Origin: Anaeromyxobacter sp.
GTDB lineage: Bacteria > Myxococcota > Myxococcia > Myxococcales > Anaeromyxobacteraceae
Length of the DNA stretch: 34,963 bases
Reading direction: 5' to 3'
Assembly (NCBI GenBank): GCA_025360965.1
Contig: JANYBC010000104.1
Location: forward strand, 1 to 34,963
Positions within the stretch are counted from its first letter, which is position 1. Every line of letters starts with the position of its first letter. This document shows positions 20,641 through 34,963 of the stretch, one piece after another. The position numbers and the translations under genes were made by a program. The notes beneath the pieces were generated by a model, which was not told the DNA's origin, did not search any database, and worked only from the letters and a program-made list of their open reading frames with translations.

Positions 20641-22314
20641 TCAGGGGACTACCCACCCGGTGTCGGCCACCAGCTGCGTCCCCTCGGGCTTCGCGAAGTG
20701 GACGATGTACCCGCCCTTGGAGGCGAAGCGCTGGCCCGGGGCCAGCCCCAGCCGCGGGTAGTAGCCGTTGACCAGGCGGTGGCTCAGCAGCGACTCGAGC
20801 CGCTCCACCAGGTAGTCGCGGACGAAGCTGTCGAGCATGTGGCCGACCGTCTCGGAGAGGATGACGCAGGCCAGGTAGGTGTCGGTCTGCACCCGCTCGT
20901 CCACCACCTGGATGTGCCGGACGTTGAACCAGCCGAGCGGGAAGGCCATCCGGACCTTGCGCTGCTCGGGCAGGTCGAGTGGATAGGCCATGCGGGCCGC
21001 GCCGCGCCACGCCGCCGGCAGGGGGGCCTCCTCCAGCTTCCCCATCAGCCCCGACAGGTAGACCGCCGAGATCCCGGCCGGCGGGGCGGGCAGCGCGGCC
21101 AGGTCGCCGGGGCGAAGCCAGAGGACCAGCGCGTCGCCAGCGCCGGTGGCGCCCAGGGCCGCCCCCAGCCCGGTCCGCGCGGAGCCGGGCTGCAGGACGC
21201 GCGTCACGGTCTCGAGCCCGGGGATGGCGAGGGCGGCCTGGAGCGCCCCGGCCGCCGCGGCGCCGACGCCCCCCGCCTCGTAGACCTGCACCACCCGGCG
21301 CAGCCCGAGCTTCTGGCGCTGCTCGGCGAGCTGCCGGGCGATGAGCTGGGCCTCGAGCAAGACGCCCCTGGAGAAGTAGACCGGGTAGAAGTCCTGCTCC
21401 GCCGCCACCGGGAGGTCGACGTTGGGCAGCAGGCAGGGGAGCGAGGCCTGCTCGCAGAAGCGGTGCACCGGCGCCCAGTTCCTGCCGCCGAGGCCGGAGA
21501 GGACGGCGAAGACCGGCGTCGCCGCGGCGTGGTTGCGCAGTTGCTGCTCCCAGGTCTCGGCCGGCCCGGTGAGCGTCCAGACGTGGAGCTGCCACTTCCG
21601 GTTGACCCGGTACATCACCCCCCGGGTCGACTGCATGGCCGGGCTGTCGCCGCGGTAGCCGACGTTCTTGTCGGCGAAGAACTGCTGGAGCACGTCCAGC
21701 ATGCCCTGGCGCGCGATGGGATCGGCGTCGGGGGTGACGACGGTGGCGAAGTGGAGCGTGTCGCGCGTCACGCCCGGCACCGGGGCGCTGGTCAGCCCCT
21801 TCAAGTAGGCGATCAGCGACGCCATGGTGGCGTCGTCGAGCTGGTAGCGGGGCATCAGGTAGTTGAGCGCCCTCCCGGACTGGTCCCTGCCCTCGCGGAT
21901 GGCCCGGGCCAGCGTGGCGTCGGTGTAGGGGTCGCGGTGGGGGACGTAGCCCTGCACGTGGGGCAGGTCAGGGTCCTCGACGTTGCGGGCCCCGGGGCGG
22001 AACAGGTAGCGGCCGATGATGGGCGGGATGACGATCTGCCCCTCCCAGCTGCCGAGGCCGCTGCGGCGGTGGCAGGTGGCGCAGGCCGCCACCGCCCCCT
22101 CCACGCCCACCCCGCCCTCGCGGCGCCCCTGCAGCGACCTGCCGGAGGGGAGCACCCCCTCGCGATAGAGCCGCTCGCCGGCGGCCGGCGCCGCCCCGCC
22201 GGCGGATGGGGCCAGGAGCGGCAGGAGGGCGAGCAGGACCGCGGCGGCACGGCCGAGCCGGGCTCCGACCCCGCCGGCCGTCGCGGCCACCCCGCCGCCC
22301 TCCCAACAGGTCAC
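20641..22314 (-). CDS. Exported cytochrome c / periplasmic-binding-protein fusion
   Basis: A 557-residue exported protein. A signal peptide-like hydrophobic run (about 19-40) is followed by a monohaem cytochrome c domain (about 45-175). The haem site is CATCH (C78, C81, H82) and the probable axial Met is M154 in NYLMPRY. From about 180 to the end, the pattern (LHFATVVTPDADPIARQGMLDVLQQFFADKN..., PVFAVLSGLGGRNWAPVHRFCEQASLPCLLPNVD) resembles type I periplasmic binding proteins of the amino-acid/urea receptor class. I infer a ligand-linked electron carrier in the periplasm. Start GTG 22314 overlaps the SCO stop within GTGA, so translation is coupled; an in-frame GTG eight codons later is possible. 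No transporter permease is adjacent. Confidence 0.8.
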   Translation of the reverse strand: MTCWEGGGVAATAGGVGARLGRAAAVLLALLPLLAPSAGGAAPAAGERLYREGVLPSGRSLQGRREGGVGVEGAVAACATCHRRSGLGSWEGQIVIPPIIGRYLFRPGARNVEDPDLPHVQGYVPHRDPYTDATLARAIREGRDQSGRALNYLMPRYQLDDATMASLIAYLKGLTSAPVPGVTRDTLHFATVVTPDADPIARQGMLDVLQQFFADKNVGYRGDSPAMQSTRGVMYRVNRKWQLHVWTLTGPAETWEQQLRNHAAATPVFAVLSGLGGRNWAPVHRFCEQASLPCLLPNVDLPVAAEQDFYPVYFSRGVLLEAQLIARQLAEQRQKLGLRRVVQVYEAGGVGAAAAGALQAALAIPGLETVTRVLQPGSARTGLGAALGATGAGDALVLWLRPGDLAALPAPPAGISAVYLSGLMGKLEEAPLPAAWRGAARMAYPLDLPEQRKVRMAFPLGWFNVRHIQVVDERVQTDTYLACVILSETVGHMLDSFVRDYLVERLESLLSHRLVNGYYPRLGLAPGQRFASKGGYIVHFAKPEGTQLVADTGWVVP

Positions 22315-22946
22315 CGGGCGGCGACCAGGTCGCGCAGCTCCCTGGCCAGCTCGTCCGAGGACGCGAAGCCGTCGATCCGCACCCAGCTGCGCCCGTGCGC
22401 GGCGCGAAGGAACGTGACCGGCGTGTGGTTCATCTTATCGCCCCGGTAGACCTCGAAGGCGCGCTGCACCGCGACGCTGGCCTCGGTGGTGCCGGTGTAG
22501 AAGTGCCAGGTGGCGCCGGCGTGGAAGCGCCGGGCGTAGTCCGCCAGGCGCGCCGGGGTGTCCTGCTCCGGGTCGATCGAGATCGAGACCAGGTGGACCT
22601 TACCCAGCTCGCTCCCCAGCTTCTCCTGCAGCTGGGTGAAGGTCTGGCTCAGCACCGGGCAGATGGTGGTGCAGGTGGTGAAGATGAAGTTGAGGACCAC
22701 CGGCCGCCCATCGTCGAACTCCCTGGGGAGGGTCACGGTGGCCCCATCCTCCCGCACCAGGCCGACGCCGGGCAGTGGGTGGTCGGCGGTGGAGCGCGTG
22801 GCCCGCTTCAGGGTCGCCGCCGTGGCCGCCTCGCGGCAGTGGGCGTGCGGGTCGGGCGCCTCCTCGGCGAGGACGGCGGAGGCGGGAGCGAGCAGGGCCG
22901 CGACCAGCGCCAGCGCGGCGACTGGGGGCTTGGCGGGGATTCTCAT
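22311..22946 (-). CDS. SCO1/SenC/PrrC-family copper chaperone
   Basis: A 211-residue exported thioredoxin-fold protein. An N-terminal signal or anchor (about 8-27, VAALALVAALLAPASAVLA) precedes the domain. Copper ligands are C92 and C96 in TTCTTICPVLS, and H174 in DKMNHTPVTF. The ISIDPEQDTPARLADYA segment is typical of SCO. SCO proteins deliver copper to the CuA site of cytochrome oxidase or to other periplasmic copper enzymes, or reduce their cysteines. No cytochrome oxidase gene is in the window, and the neighbours are MCO-family proteins and a cytochrome, so a role in copper loading for this cluster is plausible but inferred. It overlaps the downstream fusion gene by 4 bases and begins 23 bases after the lipoprotein gene. 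Confidence 0.9.
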   Translation of the reverse strand: MRIPAKPPVAALALVAALLAPASAVLAEEAPDPHAHCREAATAATLKRATRSTADHPLPGVGLVREDGATVTLPREFDDGRPVVLNFIFTTCTTICPVLSQTFTQLQEKLGSELGKVHLVSISIDPEQDTPARLADYARRFHAGATWHFYTGTTEASVAVQRAFEVYRGDKMNHTPVTFLRAAHGRSWVRIDGFASSDELARELRDLVAAR

Positions 22947-22969: not shown

Positions 22970-23842
22970 TCAGTTGGGCTTCCCGAAGCGGGCGTCATCG
23001 AGCTGGGGGTTGAGGGCCACCCGCTCGACCATGATTTTCTCCGAGCCCGGGACCCCTTCGACGGCGGTCTCGAGCAGGTGCGGGATCATCAGCCCGTTCA
23101 CCGGCTTGTAGTCGCGGAAGTAGGTCCAGACCAGGTGTTGCTTCCCGTCCAGGCGGCGGGTCCCACCGTCGATCTTCACCTCCAGGAAGGTCTGGGCGTC
23201 TACCCAGACGTGGCGCACCTGGCCATTGCTCAAGGTGACCTTGAGCCGGAAGGCGTCACGCCCATCCACCGGCTCGTTCCCCTCCAGCTCGACCCGGCTG
23301 CCCTTTTTGGCGTAGTCGATGAGCGGTCCGTCCAGATCGGACTGCAGCGAGGCCAGCTGCAGCTCCTCGGCGGTGTAGGGCTCCACCTCGCGGCGCCCCA
23401 AGAAGGGCCGCAGCTTCCAGCCGCTGGCCCCGTCGTAGACCTGCACCGCCGTCTGCCCCTGGAAGCGGACCTCCACCCGCGTCTTGCGTGGCCGCTCCAG
23501 CTCCATGACGAAGGGCAGCAGCACCGGCTTGTCGGCATCGGCCTGGCGGGCGTTGGCCGCGGCCTTCCTGGCCTCGACCTTGAGCTGGGTCCGGGGCCGC
23601 AGGTAGGACTCCGCAAGCCTGGCCTGGCTCATGGGCCTCCCCGCCTCCAGGCTGCCCGACAGCGACATCGACTTGACGGCGCGCCAGGCCTCCAGGCCAC
23701 CGCGCGCCGCCGCGTTCTTGTCGGCGATCGGCTCGGCCGAGCGCTCGGCGGGGGTGGCCCGGTGACAGCCGGCCGCGACCAGCGCCAAGGCGACGACCGC
23801 GGAGCGGGAGAGCGAGGGAGGCAGCGAGCGTCGTCGGTTCAT
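22970..23842 (-). CDS. Outer-membrane lipoprotein, LolA/LolB-like fold suspected
   Basis: The 290-residue product begins MNRRRSLPPSLSRSAVVALALVAAGC, a lipoprotein signal with C26 as the probable lipidated residue (lipobox AAGC, slightly atypical). The rest alternates beta-strand-like segments, such as KTRVEVRFQGQTAVQVYDGASGWKL and AFRLKVTLSNGQVRHVWVDAQTFLEVKIDGG. This is the strand/turn pattern of LolA-like half-barrel proteins annotated as outer membrane lipoprotein-sorting proteins. A role in binding a hydrophobic ligand is inferred only. Start ATG 23842 is preceded by AGGAG at 7 bases; an earlier in-frame ATG (23863) is less likely. The upstream exported-protein gene ends 20 bases away. 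Confidence 0.8.
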   Translation of the reverse strand: MNRRRSLPPSLSRSAVVALALVAAGCHRATPAERSAEPIADKNAAARGGLEAWRAVKSMSLSGSLEAGRPMSQARLAESYLRPRTQLKVEARKAAANARQADADKPVLLPFVMELERPRKTRVEVRFQGQTAVQVYDGASGWKLRPFLGRREVEPYTAEELQLASLQSDLDGPLIDYAKKGSRVELEGNEPVDGRDAFRLKVTLSNGQVRHVWVDAQTFLEVKIDGGTRRLDGKQHLVWTYFRDYKPVNGLMIPHLLETAVEGVPGSEKIMVERVALNPQLDDARFGKPN

Positions 23843-23862
23843 GGTTTCACTCCTGGGAGGCA

Positions 23863-24408
23863 TCAGTCCACCACCAGCCCCTCGGCCCGGAAGTTGCCCA
23901 CCACCAGCGTCACGCGGCCGCCGCGCTTCACCAGCCCACCCGGGTTCCCGAAGATCACGAAGTAGGTGCGGTTGGTCTCCAGCGGGGCCACTTGGCGCAG
24001 CTCGCCGATGTTCTCCATGGCCGGGACGGCGAGCGCGGTGTGGGTCGCCTCGTCGATCAGGTACGGCCTGGCCTTGCGATCGGTCAGCGCCGCCGCCTTC
24101 CCTGGATCGACGACCCGGTAGTCGAACCGCAGCATGGCGCCCGAGGAGACGCGCCGGACGCCGACGATGTCGACGCCCCAGTTGCGCTGGAAGTACTGGC
24201 TACGGGGGACGTGGCTGGTCGAGGCCACCGGCTTCGCCTTGGGCCTGGCGGCGGGTGCGGGCGACACCTTGGCCGGCTCGGCCGCGGGAGGGGTGGCCTC
24301 CTGCGCCCGGACCGGGCCCCCGGTCGCCAGCACCCCCGCGGCCACCAGGCCGGCCAGCAGCGTCGCCATCCTGGTTGGTGTCGCCTGTCTGCGCATGCCT
24401 TGCCTCAT
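23863..24408 (-). CDS. Small exported hypothetical protein
   Basis: A 181-residue protein of unknown function with a signal peptide (about 14-36, ending GPVRAQ), an Ala/Pro/Lys-rich linker (36-65) and a conserved-looking domain (about 70-181). That domain starts SQYFQRNWGVDIVGVRRVSSG and runs through VVDPGKAAALTDRKARPYLIDE to a beta-rich end (VTLVVGNFRAEGLVVD). The strand pattern suggests a small beta-sandwich. Start ATG 24408 is chosen because AAGGTGG lies 3 bases upstream; the open frame extends further but without protein-like character. It is the first gene after the internal hairpin and probably the head of the downstream sub-operon with the lipoprotein, SCO and cytochrome-fusion genes. 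Confidence 0.8.
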   Translation of the reverse strand: MRQGMRRQATPTRMATLLAGLVAAGVLATGGPVRAQEATPPAAEPAKVSPAPAARPKAKPVASTSHVPRSQYFQRNWGVDIVGVRRVSSGAMLRFDYRVVDPGKAAALTDRKARPYLIDEATHTALAVPAMENIGELRQVAPLETNRTYFVIFGNPGGLVKRGGRVTLVVGNFRAEGLVVD

Positions 24409-24454
24409 AACCACCTTCAGTCGCCTGCGCTGCACCCTGGGAGGTCCAGCAGGT

Positions 24455-24483
24455 GCGGCCTGGGAGGCACTACCCCAGGCCGC
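24455..24483. terminator. Perfect 10-bp hairpin between the giant gene and the downstream genes
   Basis: GCGGCCTGGG (24455-24464) and CCCAGGCCGC (24474-24483) pair perfectly across a 9-base loop. It sits in the only sizeable gap (131 bases) of the minus-strand cluster, between the giant gene's stop and the next start. No T-tract follows, so it may be a partial terminator, an mRNA-end stabiliser or an RNA-processing site that sets different expression levels on its two sides. Confidence 0.55.
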
Positions 24484-24539
24484 GCCCATCGAATGGCCCC
24501 CGTTCGAGGCCCGCCCACTCCCTGCCAGGGCGCTGCTCG

Positions 24540-27500
24540 CTAGTTGCTGCTTCCGGTCAGCGCCACCGTCCCCGTGACGACAGGGGTGGTTCCCCTCACG
24601 TTCAAGGTCGCGGCCTTCGCCCCCGCCGAGGTGGGGTGGAAGCTCACGACGATGGTGCAACTGGCGCCCGCGGCCAGCGTCGCCGGGGGCACCGGGCAGG
24701 CGTTGGTGGCGATGGCGAACTGGCCCGCGTTGGGACCGGTGATGGTGATGCCGGGCCCGCCGCCGCCGCCGATGATGGTCAGCGGGCCGGTCCCGGAGTT
24801 GAGCAGCGCCACGTCCTGCAGCGTGGTGGAGTTACGCAGCTGCGCGCCGAAGCCGAAGGTAGTCGGGTTCATGGCGATGGCGGGAATCAGCAGCGTGCCG
24901 GTGAGCGTCCCCCGCTGGAGGCCGCCCGGCGCCGCCAGGTTGAAGTTGAGGAAGGCCGACTTGGTGACCGGGTTGGCAGGCGGCAGGCCCGCCGGCGTGA
25001 AGGTGACGGCGACCGTGCAGAAGGCGTTCGCCGGCAGCGTTCCGGGGCAGTTGTTGCTGGTGATGGCGAACTGGCCCGGATTGAGGCCCACCCCTCCCCC
25101 GATGGCCACGTTGTTGATGACGGCGATGCCCGGCCCGGCGTTGGTCACTTTGATGGCCTGCGGAGCTGTCGTGACCTGGAGCAGGCTCGCGAAGAGCGCC
25201 GGGTTGGGCGAGAAGACCAGGTTCGGCACCAGGATGGTCCCGGTCAGCGCCACCGACGCCGAGTTGCCGGTCCCCGCGACGTTGAACTGGAGGACCGCCG
25301 TCTTGATGAGCGGCGACGCGGCGACCGGCGCGAAGGTGACGGTCACCGTGCAGCTGGCGCCCGCGGCCAGCGTCGCCGGGGGCACCGGGCAGCCGTTGGT
25401 GGCGATGGCGAACTGGCCCGGGTTGGTGCCAGCCAACGCCACGTTGGTGATGGTGAGCGACGTGGCGCCGGTGTTGCTGAACGTCACCGGGGCGCTGGTG
25501 GTGGTGTTGATCGACGTGGCCAGGTCGAGCGCGGCCGGCGAGACGGCGTCGTTGCGGAGGTAGTTGCCGAAGGCCGCCACGTTGCCGCTGGCCACCGAGC
25601 CGGAGGAGTAGAGCGGCCCGTAGCGCATGTTGACGTAGTTGTTCCCCTCGTCCTCGGTGGCCGCCACTTGCAGGTTCTTGACGCTGGGCGGGTTGATGAC
25701 GCCCGGCAGCTCGGGCACCACGCGCGAGCCGTTGCAGTACTGGCCGCCCAGCCTGAAGCCGGCGGGGCTGGTGTTGCCGGAGCCCAGGTAACCCACGGTG
25801 CTGGTCATGATGGTGAACGTCGGGTTGAGCGCCACCGCGCCCGGCACCGGGCTGCCGTCGCCGAGAGCGCCGATGTCCCAGTAGGCGGCCCCCGACGGGC
25901 ACTGGCCGGTGGTGGCCTGGTTGGCCAGCGTGGTGCAGCCGCTGCCCGCGGTCCCCACGTCGTTCCCGGCGCAGATCAGCCCTCCGACCGCGGGGGCCGT
26001 GGCCGGGGCGTAGTAGAAGGACCGGTTCTGCCAGATGATGTCCCTGGTGAGGGTCGGCTGGGAGACGGCGTTGGCTGTCCGCAGGGCCAGCGAGGCCATC
26101 TGGGCGAGCAGCTGCGCGCTGGTGGGCTCGGAGACGATGCCGGAGGGGCTGGGACGACCGCGGCCCACCACACCGGGGGTCGCCACCGGGACCACGCCGC
26201 CCGCCAGCATCACGCCCGCGATGCCGGCGCTGTCGTTGGACGCGATGGTGTCGTCGACGATGGAGGTGCGCAGCGCGTCGGAGACCGAGACGCCGCCACC
26301 CGCCCAGCCGGCCACGTTGTTGACGATCAGGTTGTTGCTGATCGTGACCCGGTACCACTGCGACGGATCGGCGGGGAAGGCGGTCACGTCGGCGCCGTTG
26401 ACCTGCTGCAGCCGGATGCCGCCACCCTGGCCGGCCTCGGCGAAGTTGCCGCGGACCAGGTTGCCGTCGATGGTGACGTCGCCCGTGCCCAGCGAGACCG
26501 TCCCGACCAGCGGCGGCTCACCGCCCACGAAGATGCCGCCGCCGTGGGTGGCGGCCGTCTGCTGGAAGCTCTGGTTGAAGAGCACCTGGTTGGCGGAGAT
26601 GGAGCCGCCCTGGCTGAGGCCGAGGTGGCCGATGCCGGCGCCGTCCGCGCTGCTGTAGTTGCCGCAGATCCAGTTGTGGTCGACGCTGTAGCCGTCGGTG
26701 CCGGAGCAGATGGAGACGCCGCCGCCGGCGCCGCCGTTGCCGAGCGGCGCCTCGACGGTGCCGTTCTTGGTGACGGCGTTGTGGTGGATCCGGACATTCT
26801 CGTCGTAGCCGAAACCGGGGATGCGCTGGCCAGCGCTGGAGGCCGGGAGCGCCACCTGCTCCAGGTAGGGAACGCCCACGCGGATGCCGCCGTTGTAGGC
26901 GCCGGCGTTGCCGTAGACCCGGTTGTTGGAGATCTCCAGGCCGTGGGCCCAGCCGTTGACGTAGATGCCGCCACCGGCGTCGCCGCCGGTGACGCTGAGG
27001 CCGTCGATGCGGGAGGGCTGGCAGATGAAGTTGCTGTCGTAGCCGACGGTGAGCCTGTCGTTGCAGCTGGTGAAGGGGAGGTTCTTGGCCAGCACGGTGA
27101 TGCCGGGGCCCTCCTCCGTGCCGAGCACCGACGGCTCGAGGATGATCACGCCGCCGGTGATCTCCTGCGTGGGCAGCGGATCGACCTGGGACGGCAAGGT
27201 CTGGTTCCCGGTGATCGAGTCGACGTTGAAGAGCTGGTTGATGCTCTTGCGCCAGGTCTCGAGCTTGGAGGTCGGGTACTTGGCGGCGTTGATGATGACC
27301 GAGGCGGCGCCGACGCCCTGCAGCCGGACCGGCTTGGACATGATCACCAGCTCGTTGTACGTGCCGGCGTCGACCATGATCAGGTCGCCCGGCTTGGCCA
27401 GGTCGACCGCCCCCTGGATGGTCTGCCCCAGGCTGGCCTGGACCAGCGTGGGCGCGGCGCCGCCCTGGGTGACCGTGACGGTGTCGACCGAGGTCAGGCC

Positions 27501-30500
27501 GGAGGCGGTGGTGATGACCAGCTCGCTCTCAGCCAGCTGCGGCGAGGGGAGGGCCGCGAGGGGCTGGACGGTGACCGTGATGCTGGTGTCGGACCAGGCG
27601 ACGGAGGCCGGAGGGAGGGTGGTGGTGGTGTAGCGCCTGGTGCCGTCGGCCGGGTTGACGATGGTGGTGACCAGCTTCACGGTGCCCTTGGCGGCGCCGA
27701 AGCCGTAGTGGCGCAGGACGGTGGGCTGGCTGGACGGGCCGCTGGCCGCGAACGGGCCGGCGTAAGCCGGGTTGGGGACCAGCTGGTCGCCCTGGGCCTG
27801 GATGGTCAGCGTGCCGCCGGCGGCCGGCAGCCAGGGGCCGATGCCGGCGCTGCCGTCGACCCGCAGGATGGCGGGCGCGTGGTCGGGCTGGGCGCAGTCG
27901 GGCGGGTTGTAGCCGGCGGCGAAGGCCGCGATGGGCAGGACCGGGGTGTCGAGGTAGGTGGTCTGCCCCGGCATGAACGGCACCGTGTAGCAGAAGTTGC
28001 TGTAGGCCGGGTTGTAGGCCGGGTCGGTGATCATCGTCCCGTTCGTTCCTGGGATGGGCCCCGGGTCGTTGATGCAGACCACCATCATGTTCGGCCCATA
28101 GCCGGACGGCGTGGGCGGGTTCACCAGCCAGCTCGAGGGCGTCATGGTGTTGTAGGCACCCCACTGGTCGCTGTAGGTGCGGCTGACCTCCATGCCGGTG
28201 AAGTCCTTGATCGACACCGGCACGAAGGGCACCGAGGCCTTCTCGCCGAAGTCCGGCGCCGCTGCGTTGAACTCCGAGGAGGCGTCGTCGAGGATGATGC
28301 CGGTGTTGTTGCTGGCCACCGGGACCTCGGTGAAGACGAAGAAGGCGGCGCTGGCCTGCTGCTGGTCGTTGAGGGCCACCAGCTTGCGGTCGCAGAGCGG
28401 ACGGTCCATGCCGGCGAAGGGCGCGACCTGCTTGGCCTGCGGGTAGAGGCTGAGGAAGTCGGGGACGCGGTGCGGGGTGCCGACGCACTCGGGGAAGGTG
28501 GCGGCGTTGGAGATGCCGTACACGCCCAGGTTGCTGGTCGGGTTGCTCTGGAACCCGGGGTCGCCGGTGGAGGGGTTGTACGGGTTGGCGTTACCGAGGG
28601 TGGCCTGGTCCGGGAGGATGAAGATGCTGCCCAGGGGGCCGAACTGCTGCGTCACCGGAGCCACGAAGGCGTCGCCGATGAGGATGTTCTTGTCCTCCTC
28701 CTTGACGACCTGGTAGCCGGGGGGGGTGACCTCCTCGACCACGTAATGTCCTGGAGGCAGGCTGACCAGGGTCGGGCACGTCGTCGTGGCGGACGGCGTG
28801 CATGGCGCCAGCGGGTTGGCGGCGATGTAGGCCGGGCTCGGGAAGCTGAAGCGGCCGTCATAGGGGGCGCCCTGCACCTGGTTCCAGTCGTGCCAGCCGT
28901 CGTAGCAGCGCTTCCGGTCGGCGGCGCCCAGCGTGTAGAGGACGAAGGGATCGCTGGGGTCCTGGCCGGGGCACTGCAGGTTGACCTGGACGCCCGCGGT
29001 CACGCCGGTGGGGGCGACGGCCCCGGTGGCCGGATCGCGCAGCGTGCCGTCGGTCCCGAGCAGGTAGTTCTTGCCGTCGGACCCCTTCACCAGGTTGACG
29101 AAGTCGTCGAAGCTGGTGGTGGTGGTGCTGTCGACCAGCGCCAGCGTCTCGGTGCCGTCGGCCAGCGTCTTCTTCTGGTAGAGGTTCACCTGCACGCGCG
29201 GGATGAGCGGCTCCCAGATGGTCTGCACGTTGAGCCGCATGTCGTCGAACGGGCGCGTCGAGGAGTAGACCACGGTCCCGAGGATGCCGCCGTTCTCGCC
29301 GGCCAGGTAGGGCGCCCGGCCCCACTCCACGCGGTTCCGCTGGCTGATGAAGCTCTGCAGGCCGTAGGTCTGCGAGCCCGGCAGCTCGGTCCGCTCGGTC
29401 GTCCCGTCGAGCGGGTAGGCGTAGTTCGAGGACCAGAGCCTGGCGCCGGGGCCGGCGGTGTCCACCTTGCCGCCGCCGTCCACGTAGACGTGGACGCCGG
29501 TCTGCTTGAAGCGGGTGGTGTCGGCCTCGGCGACGTACCAGTTGAAGAGCGGGAACATCTCGACCAGCAGGCCGTTGCCGTTGCTGTCGGTGAGCGTGGT
29601 CATCGACGGCGCGCCGTTGCGGAAGCGCACGCTGAGCGGGACGTTGGAGATGCCGGGCTCGCCGGGGTCCATCTTCCCGTTCCCGTTCAGGTCCATGAAG
29701 ATGTTCTGGTCGTACTGCGTGAACCAGCTCAGCACCGGGATGTCGCCCATGGCCACCGTGGCGGTGGCGGCGGGGACGCTCACGGCGACGGCCTGGATGA
29801 TCTGGTCGAGCCACTGGTCGAAGACCTCCACTTCGAAGTCACCGGCCGGGACGCCGCTCAGGACGAAGTTGCCGTCCGGGTCGCACTGCGCGGAGGCGAT
29901 GGCGGGTCCGTTACCGCCCTGGGAGTTGAGCACCACCTGGCAGGTGGTGGAGGAGAGCAGGTCGTACCCGCCGGAGTCCCACAAGGTCACGCTGGAGGGG
30001 TGCGACATGTGCTGGCTGGTGATCTTGCCGGTGATGGTGTGCGTGCCGGTCAGGCCCCTGGCGGTCGCGTAGGCGGCGACGTGGGCCGGGTTGACGAAGC
30101 CGATGGTGGTGTGCGGTCCGGGCGGCCCGAACTCCTGGAAGTACCCGGGCTCGTTGATGCCGACGAAGGCGTCCTGCGCCGGCGTGCCCTCCAGCGTCTC
30201 GGTCTGCCACCAGACCTCGCCGGCGGCCTCGCGCGCCGCGCCCGGGTGGGCGATGACGTCGTAGCGGGCCGGGGTCAGGTTCTTGATGAGGGCGTGGCCG
30301 GCCAGGGCGTAATTCACGCCGTCGGCCAGCGGGGTCCCGTAGTTGGGATCGCTCGGGCAGGTGTAGATCGCGCCGACCAGGTTGCCGCCCGGCGAGGTGG
30401 CCGTCCCGTTGGTCTTGCCGTTCAGCTCGTCCGGGCAGCCCGGCCTGCCGAGCAGGGCGTTGGAGAGCGGCATGTTGAAGGCGTCGTAGGTCTGCTGGCC

Positions 30501-33014
30501 CGCCGGATCGCCGGTGCGGCCGGCCGGGTCGAGGAGGATGATGTTGAAGCCGCCCAGGGGGGGCTCGATGGTCCCGTCGTTGGCCCCGTTGGTCGGGTTG
30601 TTGTCCTCGTAGATGTAGAGGCTCATCTGCGCGGTCACCAGCGGGCTCACCTGGAGCTTGATGTTCAAGGGTGCCAGGGTCTTGGTGCTGCCGGCCACCA
30701 GCTTGACCTCGCCGCCGCCCATGATGTGGCCGGGGGGGCTCCCGGCGTCGCCGGGCAGGATCGAGACGTAGTAGTGCCGGGACGGGTCGAGGGCCACCTG
30801 GGCGAGCGTCGCCTGCCGCAGGAGCGCGTCGGCGTCTGTCACCACCTTGCGATTGGTGGTGTTGTCGATCGGGCCCGCCACGTCGATCCTGGTCGACTGG
30901 CCGCTGCCGCAGCTGATGGGGCCGACGCAGCCGGTCGCCACCACCGGCATGTGGCTCCGGTGGAAGCTGGTGCCGACGGTGCGGGTGCTGACCGAGGGGG
31001 TGCCGGTGACGTCGTGCTTGAAGGTCAGGTCCTCCTGCAGCGTCCAGCGGTAGTCGGTGATGGCGACGCCGCTGATGGCGTCGGCCACCGTGACGGCCAG
31101 GCCCGAGGTGGCGCCGGGCGCGCCGAAGCTCACGGTCACGGTCGCGGGCGTGGCGCTCGCAGTGCCCTGCGAGTTGACGGCGTTGTAGGTGAACGCGCAC
31201 GAGGCCGGGGCCCCCGTCGCGGTCACGTCGAACGACCCATCCGCACGGAGCGTCACGGAGGCGCAGCTGCCCGTCGCCGCCAGACTGGCGGTGAGCGGGA
31301 AGCCGTGGGGATCGGAGTCGTTGGACAGCACGCCGGGGCGCGCCACGCTGAACGTGCTGGTGAAGGCGCTGGTGTAGCTGTCGGCGTTGGCGACCGGCGT
31401 GTTGCCGGCGCCGGTGAGCTGCGCGGCGACGGTCAAGGTCACGGTGGCGGTCAGGGCGGCGTTGCCGTTGCCGTAGTAGGTGAAGCTGTCGGGGCCGGAG
31501 TAGCCGGCGGTGGGCGTGTAGGTGAAGCTGCCGCTGCCGCCGAGGGACAGGGTGCCGTGCTGGACCAGCAGGACGTTGTTGAGCGCCACGCTGGTGATGG
31601 AGGTGTCGTTGGCCGTCACGTTGGCGCTGATGGCGGTGTTGTAGGGCACCTTGAAGGCGTCATCGACCGCCCTGGGGACGACCGCGGCGGGCAGGAAGCC
31701 CGGTGCGCCGGTGCCGACCACGCCGCCGTTGGCCGCGATGGCGGCGGCCTGGTTGATGAGCAGGAAGGCCTGCATGCCGCCGTCGGCGCGGTTGTTGGTG
31801 CTCAGGCTTAGGGAGCGGTCGAACACCGGGTAGGTGGCCGCCGCGTAGGCGTTCCCGCTGGCGGCGGGGTGCACCACCGCGTCGTAGGTCTTGCCGGCGG
31901 TCAGCAGCACCTCGCTCTGGACCTTGGGGTTCCCCTTGGCGAGGTTGCCGTCCTCGGCGACCAGCGCCATGGGCAGGCCGACGATCGACGGGATGTGCGT
32001 CCGGGAGCCGGCGTTGAGCAGCCGCACCAGCATGGTGCTGGAGGGGATGGCGTAGCTGGTCCCGTTGGCCAGGTGGAACGCCGAGTCCTCGGGAGCCGTC
32101 TTGTCGAACCAGTGGCCGTTGATGAGGAAGTAGGTCGGGGCGTAGTTGACCGCCGCCGGGTAGCAGGGCGCGGTCGGGGTGCAGAGGGGGTCGTTGAAGC
32201 GGCGGTTCACGTCGGCCCCGGCGACCGCGGCGGCGTCGACCGCCGCGTTCTGCGCCACGTCGATCTCGCTGAACAGCAGCGTGGCGTCGGCGTCGTAGCT
32301 CACGCCCGGATAGGCCGTGCCGGCGGCGCCCGGCGTCGCCGGCGAGGGGGGCGCGGTCACCACCAGCACGCCGTAGAGGCCCATGGGCACCTGCAGCGAG
32401 GGGAGCGTGCCGGTCTCGTAGAGGTAGGTGCCGGGCTTGAGGCTGCCGAAGGTCAGCGTGGCGGTGCCGGCCGCCGCCACCTCGGTGCCGAAGGAGCGGA
32501 CGCGCGGCGACTGGGCGGGCGGGATGAAGGCGTTGGGCGTGCCGGGAGGATTGACCGGGGCGTTGCCCACGAAGGTGGTGTTGTTCTGGCCGGCGTGCCC
32601 GGGGCTGGCCATCTTCACCGGCGTCCCCAGGCCGCCGCCGAGCTGTCCGAGCACGACCAGCGAGGTCGGCACCGGCAGCGCGTTGGTCAGGGCGATCTGC
32701 ACGGTGTCGCCGGCGGTCGCGTAGATGATCGGCCCAGGCGCCCAGTTGCTGCTGGTGGCGCAGGAGGCGGTCTCGCAGAAGCCCCACATCGGGGCCGGGG
32801 TCCCGTCGGGCAGGGTCGTGCTCATCCGCTTCGCCGTCAGGTTGATGACGACGCCGGGCGTGTTCTGGATTCGGGCGGCGGGACGGGCGGCGGCCGCGCT
32901 GGCCGTGGCCGAGGCGGGGCGGCTCCCCACGCCGCAGGAGACGCTGGACAGCATGAGCGCAGCGACCCCGACGGCGGTCGACAGGCGAAGGCACTTGGAC
33001 AGATGGGTTCGCAT
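24540..33014 (-). CDS. Giant secreted multidomain protein with MCO-like N-terminus and beta-helix
   Basis: The 2,824-residue product starts at ATG 33014, which has GAGGAG six bases upstream. A signal peptide with C27 (SSVSC, weak lipobox) is followed by two to three cupredoxin-like domains (about 45-450) that match the MCO in the preceding gene (GDTVQIALTNALP, YFLINGHW, VAEDGNLA) but keep none of the classic His/Cys copper motifs. Next come cadherin/Ig-like repeats (about 450-640), SdrD-B or CNA-B-like domains with DxNGxG calcium-type loops (about 790-1450; DLNGNGKMDPGEPG near 1108), an IPT/TIG-like stretch (about 1720-1845), a parallel beta-helix (about 1865-2370) and three Hydin/choice-of-anchor-D repeats (about 2485-2824). 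It has no CxxCH and no obvious C-terminal sorting signal. It is probably a surface or matrix scaffold; its function is unknown. Confidence 0.88.
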   Translation of the reverse strand: MRTHLSKCLRLSTAVGVAALMLSSVSCGVGSRPASATASAAAARPAARIQNTPGVVINLTAKRMSTTLPDGTPAPMWGFCETASCATSSNWAPGPIIYATAGDTVQIALTNALPVPTSLVVLGQLGGGLGTPVKMASPGHAGQNNTTFVGNAPVNPPGTPNAFIPPAQSPRVRSFGTEVAAAGTATLTFGSLKPGTYLYETGTLPSLQVPMGLYGVLVVTAPPSPATPGAAGTAYPGVSYDADATLLFSEIDVAQNAAVDAAAVAGADVNRRFNDPLCTPTAPCYPAAVNYAPTYFLINGHWFDKTAPEDSAFHLANGTSYAIPSSTMLVRLLNAGSRTHIPSIVGLPMALVAEDGNLAKGNPKVQSEVLLTAGKTYDAVVHPAASGNAYAAATYPVFDRSLSLSTNNRADGGMQAFLLINQAAAIAANGGVVGTGAPGFLPAAVVPRAVDDAFKVPYNTAISANVTANDTSITSVALNNVLLVQHGTLSLGGSGSFTYTPTAGYSGPDSFTYYGNGNAALTATVTLTVAAQLTGAGNTPVANADSYTSAFTSTFSVARPGVLSNDSDPHGFPLTASLAATGSCASVTLRADGSFDVTATGAPASCAFTYNAVNSQGTASATPATVTVSFGAPGATSGLAVTVADAISGVAITDYRWTLQEDLTFKHDVTGTPSVSTRTVGTSFHRSHMPVVATGCVGPISCGSGQSTRIDVAGPIDNTTNRKVVTDADALLRQATLAQVALDPSRHYYVSILPGDAGSPPGHIMGGGEVKLVAGSTKTLAPLNIKLQVSPLVTAQMSLYIYEDNNPTNGANDGTIEPPLGGFNIILLDPAGRTGDPAGQQTYDAFNMPLSNALLGRPGCPDELNGKTNGTATSPGGNLVGAIYTCPSDPNYGTPLADGVNYALAGHALIKNLTPARYDVIAHPGAAREAAGEVWWQTETLEGTPAQDAFVGINEPGYFQEFGPPGPHTTIGFVNPAHVAAYATARGLTGTHTITGKITSQHMSHPSSVTLWDSGGYDLLSSTTCQVVLNSQGGNGPAIASAQCDPDGNFVLSGVPAGDFEVEVFDQWLDQIIQAVAVSVPAATATVAMGDIPVLSWFTQYDQNIFMDLNGNGKMDPGEPGISNVPLSVRFRNGAPSMTTLTDSNGNGLLVEMFPLFNWYVAEADTTRFKQTGVHVYVDGGGKVDTAGPGARLWSSNYAYPLDGTTERTELPGSQTYGLQSFISQRNRVEWGRAPYLAGENGGILGTVVYSSTRPFDDMRLNVQTIWEPLIPRVQVNLYQKKTLADGTETLALVDSTTTTSFDDFVNLVKGSDGKNYLLGTDGTLRDPATGAVAPTGVTAGVQVNLQCPGQDPSDPFVLYTLGAADRKRCYDGWHDWNQVQGAPYDGRFSFPSPAYIAANPLAPCTPSATTTCPTLVSLPPGHYVVEEVTPPGYQVVKEEDKNILIGDAFVAPVTQQFGPLGSIFILPDQATLGNANPYNPSTGDPGFQSNPTSNLGVYGISNAATFPECVGTPHRVPDFLSLYPQAKQVAPFAGMDRPLCDRKLVALNDQQQASAAFFVFTEVPVASNNTGIILDDASSEFNAAAPDFGEKASVPFVPVSIKDFTGMEVSRTYSDQWGAYNTMTPSSWLVNPPTPSGYGPNMMVVCINDPGPIPGTNGTMITDPAYNPAYSNFCYTVPFMPGQTTYLDTPVLPIAAFAAGYNPPDCAQPDHAPAILRVDGSAGIGPWLPAAGGTLTIQAQGDQLVPNPAYAGPFAASGPSSQPTVLRHYGFGAAKGTVKLVTTIVNPADGTRRYTTTTLPPASVAWSDTSITVTVQPLAALPSPQLAESELVITTASGLTSVDTVTVTQGGAAPTLVQASLGQTIQGAVDLAKPGDLIMVDAGTYNELVIMSKPVRLQGVGAASVIINAAKYPTSKLETWRKSINQLFNVDSITGNQTLPSQVDPLPTQEITGGVIILEPSVLGTEEGPGITVLAKNLPFTSCNDRLTVGYDSNFICQPSRIDGLSVTGGDAGGGIYVNGWAHGLEISNNRVYGNAGAYNGGIRVGVPYLEQVALPASSAGQRIPGFGYDENVRIHHNAVTKNGTVEAPLGNGGAGGGVSICSGTDGYSVDHNWICGNYSSADGAGIGHLGLSQGGSISANQVLFNQSFQQTAATHGGGIFVGGEPPLVGTVSLGTGDVTIDGNLVRGNFAEAGQGGGIRLQQVNGADVTAFPADPSQWYRVTISNNLIVNNVAGWAGGGVSVSDALRTSIVDDTIASNDSAGIAGVMLAGGVVPVATPGVVGRGRPSPSGIVSEPTSAQLLAQMASLALRTANAVSQPTLTRDIIWQNRSFYYAPATAPAVGGLICAGNDVGTAGSGCTTLANQATTGQCPSGAAYWDIGALGDGSPVPGAVALNPTFTIMTSTVGYLGSGNTSPAGFRLGGQYCNGSRVVPELPGVINPPSVKNLQVAATEDEGNNYVNMRYGPLYSSGSVASGNVAAFGNYLRNDAVSPAALDLATSINTTTSAPVTFSNTGATSLTITNVALAGTNPGQFAIATNGCPVPPATLAAGASCTVTVTFAPVAASPLIKTAVLQFNVAGTGNSASVALTGTILVPNLVFSPNPALFASLLQVTTAPQAIKVTNAGPGIAVINNVAIGGGVGLNPGQFAITSNNCPGTLPANAFCTVAVTFTPAGLPPANPVTKSAFLNFNLAAPGGLQRGTLTGTLLIPAIAMNPTTFGFGAQLRNSTTLQDVALLNSGTGPLTIIGGGGGPGITITGPNAGQFAIATNACPVPPATLAAGASCTIVVSFHPTSAGAKAATLNVRGTTPVVTGTVALTGSSN
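24655..24727. repeat. Near-identical 73-bp direct repeat in the giant gene, copy 1
   Basis: It matches 25348-25420 at 71 of 73 positions. It encodes the GCPVPPATLAAGASCT core of the last Hydin-like repeat. The middle repeat of the three is clearly more divergent, so the match points to recent duplication or gene conversion rather than ancient tandem growth. Confidence 0.85.
25348..25420. repeat. Near-identical 73-bp direct repeat in the giant gene, copy 2
   Basis: Partner of the copy at 24655-24727, 693 bases away start to start, a multiple of three. Recombination between them would therefore delete two Hydin-like repeats in frame. Confidence 0.85.
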
Positions 33015-33042: not shown

Positions 33043-34533
33043 TTACTGCGTCTCATCGATGAACCAGACCGGCGGGTCGACCAGCAGCATCGACAGGATG
33101 CCGCCCGGGAAGACATCGTTGGTGGTGATCTCGCGCTCGTTGTGCGAGTGCCACATGTAGGCGTAGCCGGCCTGCGGGTTCTGGTTGAGCGTGCCCGGCG
33201 GCTCGTTGGTGGCCGTGAAGCCGCCCGTCTTCTGGATGCCCAGGTAGGGGGTGCCGCCGTACCACTGGCCGATGGCCACGATGGTCGGATCGGGCGGCGC
33301 CACCGGGATGGGCTTCAGGTGGTCGGCGCACCACTCCCCGTAGTTCGGGTCGGTCTTGACCGAGTGGAATCCGTTGGCGTCGGGGGTGCAGGCCACCACC
33401 GGGACGTCGCTGCGGGAGTGGTTGTAGACGTCCCAGTTGAGCCCCTTGCCGGACCAGGTGAAGATCTGGTCCTGGGTCTGGCCGGAGACGGTGGGGGTGG
33501 TGAAGAGCAGCGGCCCGGCCAGGGAGGTGCCGTCGACCGCGCTCACCATTAGGTTGCCGTCGCGCGCCAGCACGCGCGCGTGGTTGCCGTGGAAGTGGAA
33601 CGGGTGCTGCCAGCGCCCCTGGCCGATGATCCGCATCAGCAGCTTCTCCCCTGGGTGCATGTGGGGGTTGGCGTTGTAGGGCTGGTGCACGTAGCCGGGC
33701 GAGTAGGAGGTGTCCATGTCGTCGGGCATGGAGCGGCCGTTGAGCAGGAAGTAGTTGGGGTGATAGGGCTCGGTGACGACCTGGATCTGCGGGCAGGGGC
33801 CGGTGGGGCAGGCGTTGACCTGGGCCAGGGCCGCGCCGTGGATCCGCGAGTCCATCTCGCTGATCTGGAAGAGGTACTCGCGGTCGTAGCAGGTGCCGGC
33901 GTTGTCGTAGGCGGCGGCCGCCAGGGAGTAGGCGCCCTTGGCGGGGCAGCCCGCCTGCACCGCCGGCAGGACCACGATGGCGCCGTAGAGCCCCATCTCG
34001 ATCTGGAGGTCGCCCTGGGTCCCGCTGTAGTAGGCGTGCGTCCCGGGCGTGGTCGCCGTGAAGCTGTAGCTCACCGTGCCGCCGCTGGCCGCCTCCTGCG
34101 TGAGCAGGCCGGCCGCGGTGCCGGCGCCGGTGGTGGCGGTCACCGCGAACCCGGGGAACAGGATCGAGGTGTTGCCGGCCGCCGCCGGCAGCGCGTTGCG
34201 GAGGTTGACGGTGACCTTGTCGCCCTCGTTCACGATCAGCGTCGGCCCCGGCAGCTGCATGGTGGGGCAGAAGGAGGAGGGCCCGGTGCTGTTGGCGACC
34301 GGCCCGGGCAGGAAGCCGCCCGGCGCCCCATCACACCCGTAACCCCAGGCGTAGACCGATGCGCCGTCGGGCTGGCTGATGAAGCCGGGGCTGGCGACCA
34401 GGTTGAAGGTGGGGCCGGTGATGCCCGGCACCGCAGCCCGGGCCGGTGACGACGGCAGCAGGCCCACCAGGCCGACGACGGCGGTGAGGAGTCCGAGGAC
34501 CGTGCTGCGACGCTTCGGGATGGTGGGGGTCAT
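33043..34533 (-). CDS. Exported multicopper-oxidase-family protein with atypical copper motifs
   Basis: A 496-residue exported protein (signal peptide about 1-34, cut after ARA) with three cupredoxin-like domains. The third-motif sequence HPFHFHG (H310, H313, H315) is intact. The C-terminal motif reads MWHSHNEREITTNDVFPGG (H462, H464) instead of HCHxxxHxxxGM, so the type-1 copper cysteine is missing. In domain 1, the usual HxHG and HSH motifs are replaced by NTSILFPGF and HAYYSGTQ. A classical laccase-type four-copper site is therefore unlikely, though one or two coppers may bind. I recall similar HSHNE variants in bacterial proteins annotated as multicopper oxidases. AGGAGA precedes ATG 34533, 11 bases after the upstream gene's stop; the giant gene starts 28 bases downstream. 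Confidence 0.85.
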   Translation of the reverse strand: MTPTIPKRRSTVLGLLTAVVGLVGLLPSSPARAAVPGITGPTFNLVASPGFISQPDGASVYAWGYGCDGAPGGFLPGPVANSTGPSSFCPTMQLPGPTLIVNEGDKVTVNLRNALPAAAGNTSILFPGFAVTATTGAGTAAGLLTQEAASGGTVSYSFTATTPGTHAYYSGTQGDLQIEMGLYGAIVVLPAVQAGCPAKGAYSLAAAAYDNAGTCYDREYLFQISEMDSRIHGAALAQVNACPTGPCPQIQVVTEPYHPNYFLLNGRSMPDDMDTSYSPGYVHQPYNANPHMHPGEKLLMRIIGQGRWQHPFHFHGNHARVLARDGNLMVSAVDGTSLAGPLLFTTPTVSGQTQDQIFTWSGKGLNWDVYNHSRSDVPVVACTPDANGFHSVKTDPNYGEWCADHLKPIPVAPPDPTIVAIGQWYGGTPYLGIQKTGGFTATNEPPGTLNQNPQAGYAYMWHSHNEREITTNDVFPGGILSMLLVDPPVWFIDETQ

Positions 34534-34544
34534 CGGCGGATCTC

Positions 34545-34963
34545 CTAGTTGACCTGGATCTCGGTCATCATTCCGCCGAAGTTCTCGGCGTCGTTCGACA
34601 GGTGGTCGAGGTTGGTGGAGTAAAGGAAGTAGGTGCCCTGGGGGACGTTGGTGACGTCGAGGATCACGTCCGCCGACTCGCCTCCGCCCATGGTGATCGA
34701 GTTGGTCTGGTAGGTGGTGTCGCCGCCGGCCATGTCGCGCAGCAGCCGGGCGTTCTGCGCGATCACCGTCATGGGGATCCCGATGGTCCCGAGCGTCACG
34801 TGCTCGGTCACGCTCAGCATCGAGATGCGCAGCAGCGCGCGGGTCTGGCCGCCGGTCTTGTTGATGGTGATCAGGCTGGGCAGCGGCTGCGACGGGCGCG
34901 AGACGCCGTCCGAGGAGAGCGTGGAGATGGGGGCGGGGTTGACGGTGTCGGGGTAGCCGCGGC
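34545..34963 (-). CDS. C-terminal part of an MCO-fold protein (partial)
   Basis: The frame is open from the window edge for 139 codons to TAG at 34545. It reads RGYPDTVNPAPIS..., then LITINKTGGQTRALLRISML and VPQGTYFLYSTNLDHLSNDAENFGGMMTEIQVN at the end. The pattern of a ligand-binding beta-sandwich followed by a xGTYFLY...GGMMTEI terminus is that of the last cupredoxin domain of MCO-family proteins. Here too the HCHxxxH motif is absent (YSTNLDH instead). Because the N-terminal part is outside the window, copper sites elsewhere cannot be judged. An internal ATG (34820) would give only 91 residues and cut the fold, so I extend the gene to the edge. Confidence 0.75.
   Translation of the reverse strand, partial: RGYPDTVNPAPISTLSSDGVSRPSQPLPSLITINKTGGQTRALLRISMLSVTEHVTLGTIGIPMTVIAQNARLLRDMAGGDTTYQTNSITMGGGESADVILDVTNVPQGTYFLYSTNLDHLSNDAENFGGMMTEIQVN

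Follow-up and report, generated by a model that had tools for sequence, protein, structure and literature searches.

A multicopper oxidase probably divided among three paralogous cupredoxin subunits encoded by adjacent genes in Anaeromyxobacter

The stretch of DNA analysed here (34,963 nucleotides; hereafter the window) is the entire contig C131 of an Anaeromyxobacter genome of 3.83 Mb in 259 contigs. At its right end lies a minus-strand gene cluster that encodes, in order, three cupredoxin proteins (A, B, and the giant protein C), two exported proteins (D and E), a SCO1/SenC-type protein, and a cytochrome c (Table 1). We compared the cluster with 80 loci that contain B, drawn from Myxococcota, Pseudomonadota, and Acidobacteriota, and the sequences of the window and of a second contig of the same genome, C8, were added for the counts reported below.

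Table 1. Features of the gene cluster at the right end of the window
Feature	Position	Strand	Remarks
Gene A, C-terminal fragment, 138 aa, cut by the contig end	34545..34961	-	PF00394; second cupredoxin domain, without copper ligands
Gene B, secreted two-domain cupredoxin protein, 496 aa	33043..34533	-	First domain (D1) ligand-free; second domain (D2) a predicted half trinuclear copper site
HPFHFHG of B, residues 310-316	33586..33606	-	Motif
HSHNERE of B, residues 462-468	33130..33150	-	Motif
Gene C, giant; probable start at about 33014 (inferred)	24540..33014	-	Ligand-free cupredoxin unit plus surface-type domains
N-terminal two-domain cupredoxin unit of C, paralogue of B, no copper ligands	31740..32870	-	PF00394 above cut-off
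Gene D, small exported protein, start inferred	23863..24408	-	No Pfam match
Gene E, exported protein	22970..23863	-	No Pfam match
SCO1/SenC-type copper chaperone gene	22311..22946	-	PF02630, 77 bits
Cytochrome c, one CATCH heme motif	20641..22314	-	

The genes that follow C recur in relatives. D lies downstream of C in all 48 loci with room for it on the contig, E is present in 29 of 29 such loci, and the SCO1/SenC gene is present in two of three (the exception is L030). We take the presence of SCO1/SenC in the cluster to point to copper loading. Only three loci reach beyond SCO1, too few to judge whether the cytochrome is linked to the cluster. The cytochrome itself (20641-22314) is an odd combination of a single CATCH motif and a long domain that follows it; in a relative, the gene in this position carries the annotation ABC transporter substrate-binding protein. 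An open reading frame of 2452 aa on the plus strand (24453-31811), antisense to the giant gene, was taken as an artefact of high GC content and set aside.

Protein B matches PF07732 at residues 93-190 and PF07731 at residues 289-327, both above cut-off. A first-pass annotation of this DNA had described it as a multicopper oxidase (MCO) that keeps HPFHFHG, has HSHNERE in place of HCHxxxH, and lacks both D1 histidine motifs. This description of B is correct, and the motifs are not there by chance: HxxHxH is found in 81/81 rows of B and HSH in 80/81, the remaining row (L080) being cut by a contig end. The two D1 motifs are replaced by, approximately, SILFPG and AYYSGT. D2 retains four histidines in HPFHFH and HSH, namely, H313, H315, H462, and H464, which we predict to be trinuclear-site ligands. 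By its place in the sequence, H310 is the leftover position of a type-1 histidine, and S463 and E468 occupy the places of the type-1 cysteine and histidine. The B protein of L101 has lost even the leftover type-1 histidine (FPFHPH) and has kept all four trinuclear histidines, as HxH and HNH. Other residues conserved in B are H293, H318, and H405 and cysteines 196, 215, 382, and 402.

The fragment of A in the window was also said to lack the motifs. As a description of the fragment this is correct, but it is an effect of truncation, because D1 of the protein lies beyond the contig end. Complete homologues, such as those of Anaeromyxobacter oryzae (L006), Sideroxydans (L009), and Acidobacteria (L035), have both D1 motifs and the type-1 cysteine; the motifs read HTVHFHG or HTIHFHG and then WHCHITPPEHLQMGM. 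The notion that all three genes had lost their motifs is therefore an artefact of the contig end, as complete A has the D1 ligands. HTVHFH and HCHITPPEHLQMGM together amount to a full type-1 site plus the four trinuclear histidines that B is without. From the structures of MCOs, we take the first motif to supply, in order, the type-1 histidine and two trinuclear histidines, and the second to supply a trinuclear histidine, the type-1 cysteine, a trinuclear histidine, the type-1 histidine, and the type-1 methionine. The roles assigned in this way to these positions agree with the published trinuclear site, which uses eight histidines, four from each of two domains (as given in part of PMC3600357).

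The N-terminus of A missing beyond position 34963, to which the first-pass annotation had drawn attention, has a counterpart in the same genome, since the end of contig C8 encodes a matching N-terminal part. The overlap with the end of the window (34855-34963) spans 109 bases inside gene A with an identity of only about 86%, and thus the C8 piece would come either from a variant strain mixed into the bin or from another copy of the cluster, rather than being a perfect continuation. Among other A sequences, A' of L098 matches PF07732 and PF00394, both above cut-off, and L098 is the one A sequence with a stray HTTHLH in its second domain.

Protein C is about 2.8k aa long. Its N-terminal cupredoxin unit, which had been called MCO-like without the motifs, indeed matches PF00394 above cut-off, is 30% identical to B, and has no ligand motif; it is fused to cadherin-like, SdrD-like, beta-helix, and choice-of-anchor D domains. 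Ligand motifs occur in 0/77 real C rows, a count that leaves out L008, L036, and L083, where the best "C" match is the B frame itself at a contig edge. Two histidines of C are nearly invariant despite the missing ligand set, H174 in 72/72 and H374 in 77/77 of the rows with a residue at that place, and H374 falls at the leftover type-1 histidine position.

Relatives at the order and phylum level (G097, G024, G104, and G109) encode A', B', and C' in small genes of their own, next to a giant gene that is likewise separate. The C' of L103 is 34% identical to the N-terminal unit of C in the window and already has a cadherin-like tail, and the body of the window giant shares 29% identity with the giant of L104. 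Given the stand-alone C' and the separate giant in these relatives, the giant in the window would most simply have arisen when C' was fused to a giant gene of surface type. The minimal operons also contain subtilisin-like protease genes, recognized by eye (L099, 1924-3555; L100, 2699-4267; L101, 311-2500; L104, 14164-15642), of which there is none in the window. These proteases might process the giant or the subunits.

In a joint alignment of the three proteins, all eight D1 ligand columns (H, H, H, H, C, H, H, and M) hold in 13/13 A sequences, the four D2 trinuclear histidines hold in 14/14 B sequences, in which the D1 ligand set is absent, and no ligand set is found in 14/14 C sequences; the columns of the second D2 HxH are gaps in A and C, where absence was read from the sequences rather than from aligned residues. 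The type-1 ligands H, C, H, and M are present in D1 of A (13/13) and not in B or C. The trinuclear histidines of A, B, and C add up to 4 + 4 + 0 = eight, i.e., to one trinuclear site in all. No single chain has four of them in both of its domains, as A has the D1 half, B the D2 half, and C neither. None of the ligands of A and B varies in any untruncated homologue from the 80 loci and three phyla. For A, HxxHxHG is present in 76/79 rows, the exceptions being the window fragment and two rows that start downstream of the motif, and HCH is present in 78/79, the window fragment again being the exception.

Judged from sequence, A and B jointly hold all 12 canonical ligands and neither does so alone, and the motif pattern is a division of labour, not a loss. 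Of the possibilities raised by the first-pass annotation, the sharing of sites between subunits of adjacent genes is thus strongly supported. The ligands of A exactly complement those of B, the two sets match D1 and D2 of a two-domain MCO, and the fold family places its trinuclear site between subunits. Binding of copper in some different way finds no support, as the combined ligand set is canonical.

The fold of the proteins points to the same family. In searches of the PDB with phmmer, 3G5W was the best match for both A' (1.9e-14) and B' (2.5e-13) of L098, with the motifs of A' aligned to the domain-1 motifs of 3G5W and those of B' to its domain-2 HxxHxH and HDH. The predicted structure of B from the window (pLDDT 81.7, pTM 0.84; residues 384-423 poor) most closely matches 2ZWN (Z 28.6, rmsd 2.7, 275 residues aligned; Foldseek E 2.3e-16) and 3G5W (Z 28.2, rmsd 3.0, 278 aligned). 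The model of B spans both structures nearly end to end, in keeping with two cupredoxin domains per chain, as are the two Pfam matches of A' of L098. When A and B of L011 were modelled in a single chain with AlphaFold2 (45 rows), the result had low confidence (pLDDT 64, pTM 0.50) and is uninformative on the contact between them.

The three genes also travel together. A is directly upstream of B in 77/80 loci and C downstream in 76/80, and in all seven exceptions (three for A and four for C) B is at a contig edge. Among 195 Myxococcota genomes searched at E <= 1e-25, 14 have B and 13 have A, and all 13 genomes with A also have B. The only genome with B and without A is G027, in which B starts at base 1 of its contig. 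Where both are present in Myxococcota, A and B adjoin, except in G000 and G014, where they are on different contigs. In a phylogenetic tree that spans Myxococcota, Pseudomonadota, and Acidobacteriota, A, B, and C each form one clade (supports 100/100, 99/89, and 97/89, respectively); the tree has no C row from Acidobacteriota, and L101_A, L101_B, and L103_C are long branches of unsure placement. A, B, and C are paralogues, all related to the trimeric two-domain oxidases (2ZWN and 3G5W). The genome of the window also encodes, at L004 (G000:C38), a second large MCO, a canonical one (HTIHFH, HCHLLGHEEEDM) that is joined to repeat domains and is reminiscent of MofA.

Based on these findings, we consider it probable that one multicopper oxidase is assembled from three paralogous subunits, each with two cupredoxin domains: A, B, and the N-terminal part of C. 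The most likely form is an A:B:C ring. Two-domain MCOs are trimers in which the trinuclear site lies between D1 of one chain and D2 of the next (as described in part of PMC13151041), and the ring would be built like these homotrimers. D1 of A would carry the blue type-1 copper (H, C, H, and M) together with four trinuclear-site histidines, and D2 of B would carry the other four. The contact between A.D1 and B.D2 would then be the sole place where an active trinuclear site forms; the ring's two remaining contacts, B.D1/C.D2 and C.D1/A.D2, would be dead. An electron donor would reduce the type-1 copper on A, and electrons would travel via the His-Cys-His path to the A/B site, where O2 would be reduced to water. 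C would contribute a structural subunit and, through its fusion, link the enzyme to a giant protein of surface or adhesin-like type; copper would probably be loaded by SCO1. The basis for this reading, computed here, is the complementarity of the ligands, their invariance, the co-occurrence of the genes, the paralogy of the proteins, the fold of B, and the occurrence of C as a separate gene in relatives. From it we infer the assembly, the order of the ring, its stoichiometry, its copper content, and O2 reduction. The hetero-complex of MCO-type folds from adjacent genes that the first-pass annotation had envisaged thus stands as a prediction.

The place of C in the ring is, on homology and gene order, the most likely role for this protein. 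Were C outside the ring, A and B would still share one trinuclear site, as a heterodimer or as (AB)n, and C would be a paralogous anchor or scaffold. Such an arrangement would suit a protein that is ligand-free and that, in the window, is merely the start of a 2.8k-aa surface-type protein. We nevertheless think it unlikely, as C is the third gene wherever the contig allows (76/80), is a paralogue of B, and has stand-alone two-domain counterparts in relatives, as expected of a third subunit; the trimeric state of two-domain MCOs (in the same part of PMC13151041) also argues for a third chain.

It is considerably less probable still that A and B act separately, with A as a blue-copper carrier or a NirK-like enzyme and B as a copper-binding accessory protein or chaperone. 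A alone does have the complete type-1 site, and a SCO1/SenC copper gene lies within the operon. However, separate action leaves unexplained why four further histidines in A and four in B are invariant at trinuclear positions, and why the two genes co-occur so strictly. B was furthermore rejected as a copper nitrite reductase (NirK), as its score against the NCBIfam equivalog TIGR02376 is far under the cut-off (40.2 versus 296.3 bits). That the fold is used without copper, in a purely structural assembly, is a suggestion of the first-pass annotation that fits only C, and B is without the type-1 cysteine and one histidine, but for the assembly as a whole we give it almost no credence, given ligand columns in A and B that are invariant across three phyla and the SCO1/SenC gene within the operon.

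If A, B, and C do form one divided oxidase, multicopper oxidases can exist as obligate hetero-oligomers in which different gene products each supply part of the trinuclear site. The cluster would then represent an extant intermediate on the route that has been proposed to lead from two-domain homotrimers to ceruloplasmin and other six-domain proteins. A further consequence would be for annotation, as genomes annotated one protein at a time would have each subunit labelled a broken or partial MCO.

A cluster of this type has been published. In Sideroxydans lithotrophicus ES-1, Slit_1812-1818 encode a cytochrome, SCO1/SenC, two small proteins, a large cupredoxin protein, and two further cupredoxin proteins, of which Slit_1817 and Slit_1818 were described as having MCO motifs and Slit_1816 as lacking them (in part of PMC12016527). 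The order and content of these genes are like those in the window, a match made by order and content rather than by sequence. The same part of the source reports higher abundance of the Slit_1812-1818 proteins on magnetite than on Fe(II)-citrate, suggests a role in the oxidation of solid Fe(II), and mentions clusters of similar type in Paraburkholderia, Ralstonia, Anaeromyxobacter, and Steroidobacteraceae. A comparable run of genes also occurs in Paraburkholderia largidicola (AP028202). In the part of the published account considered here, both motif-bearing proteins are regarded as ordinary carriers of MCO motifs, and there is no mention of a shared site, of a trimer, or of an origin of the giant by fusion. 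The protein abundances in Sideroxydans offer a lead to the substrate, which may be a mineral or dissolved metal (Fe(II)), and the divided oxidase, if real, would supply a mechanism for a cluster whose proteins Sideroxydans produces in greater amounts on magnetite.

Among known enzymes, the two-domain MCOs (2ZWN and 3G5W) are the best sequence and fold matches. The shared features are two cupredoxin domains per chain, a type-1 site in D1 (here that of A), and trinuclear ligands on D1 and D2. Unlike in those enzymes, no single chain here has both halves of the site, and three diverged paralogues hold one ligand set among them. MnxEFG is likewise a multisubunit bacterial MCO encoded by adjacent genes and tied to metal oxidation, but MnxG is its sole MCO, and MnxE and MnxF resemble no characterized protein, so that its site is not divided between subunits of the MCO fold (in part of PMC5622069). 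In the open-license PMC papers we found no account of a trinuclear site divided between paralogous subunits. Six-domain MCOs of the ceruloplasmin and MnxG types have at most one trinuclear site (PMC3600357, in part). If A:B:C is the unit, it would resemble them in having six cupredoxin domains, one trinuclear site, and the other sites lost, whereas its domains are spread over three chains and genes rather than arranged in tandem on one chain. As a tentative and rather doubtful extension, this divided oxidase might stand between the homotrimeric two-domain and the single-chain six-domain MCOs, with three paralogous subunits, one working interface of three, and a giant surface protein, fused to one of the subunits, that keeps the enzyme against solid Fe(II) or Mn minerals, which would be oxidized extracellularly. 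Whatever its substrate, the predicted shared site is what appears to be new in an already published cluster, and we would place it as a variant of the two-domain MCOs, outside any single-chain class.
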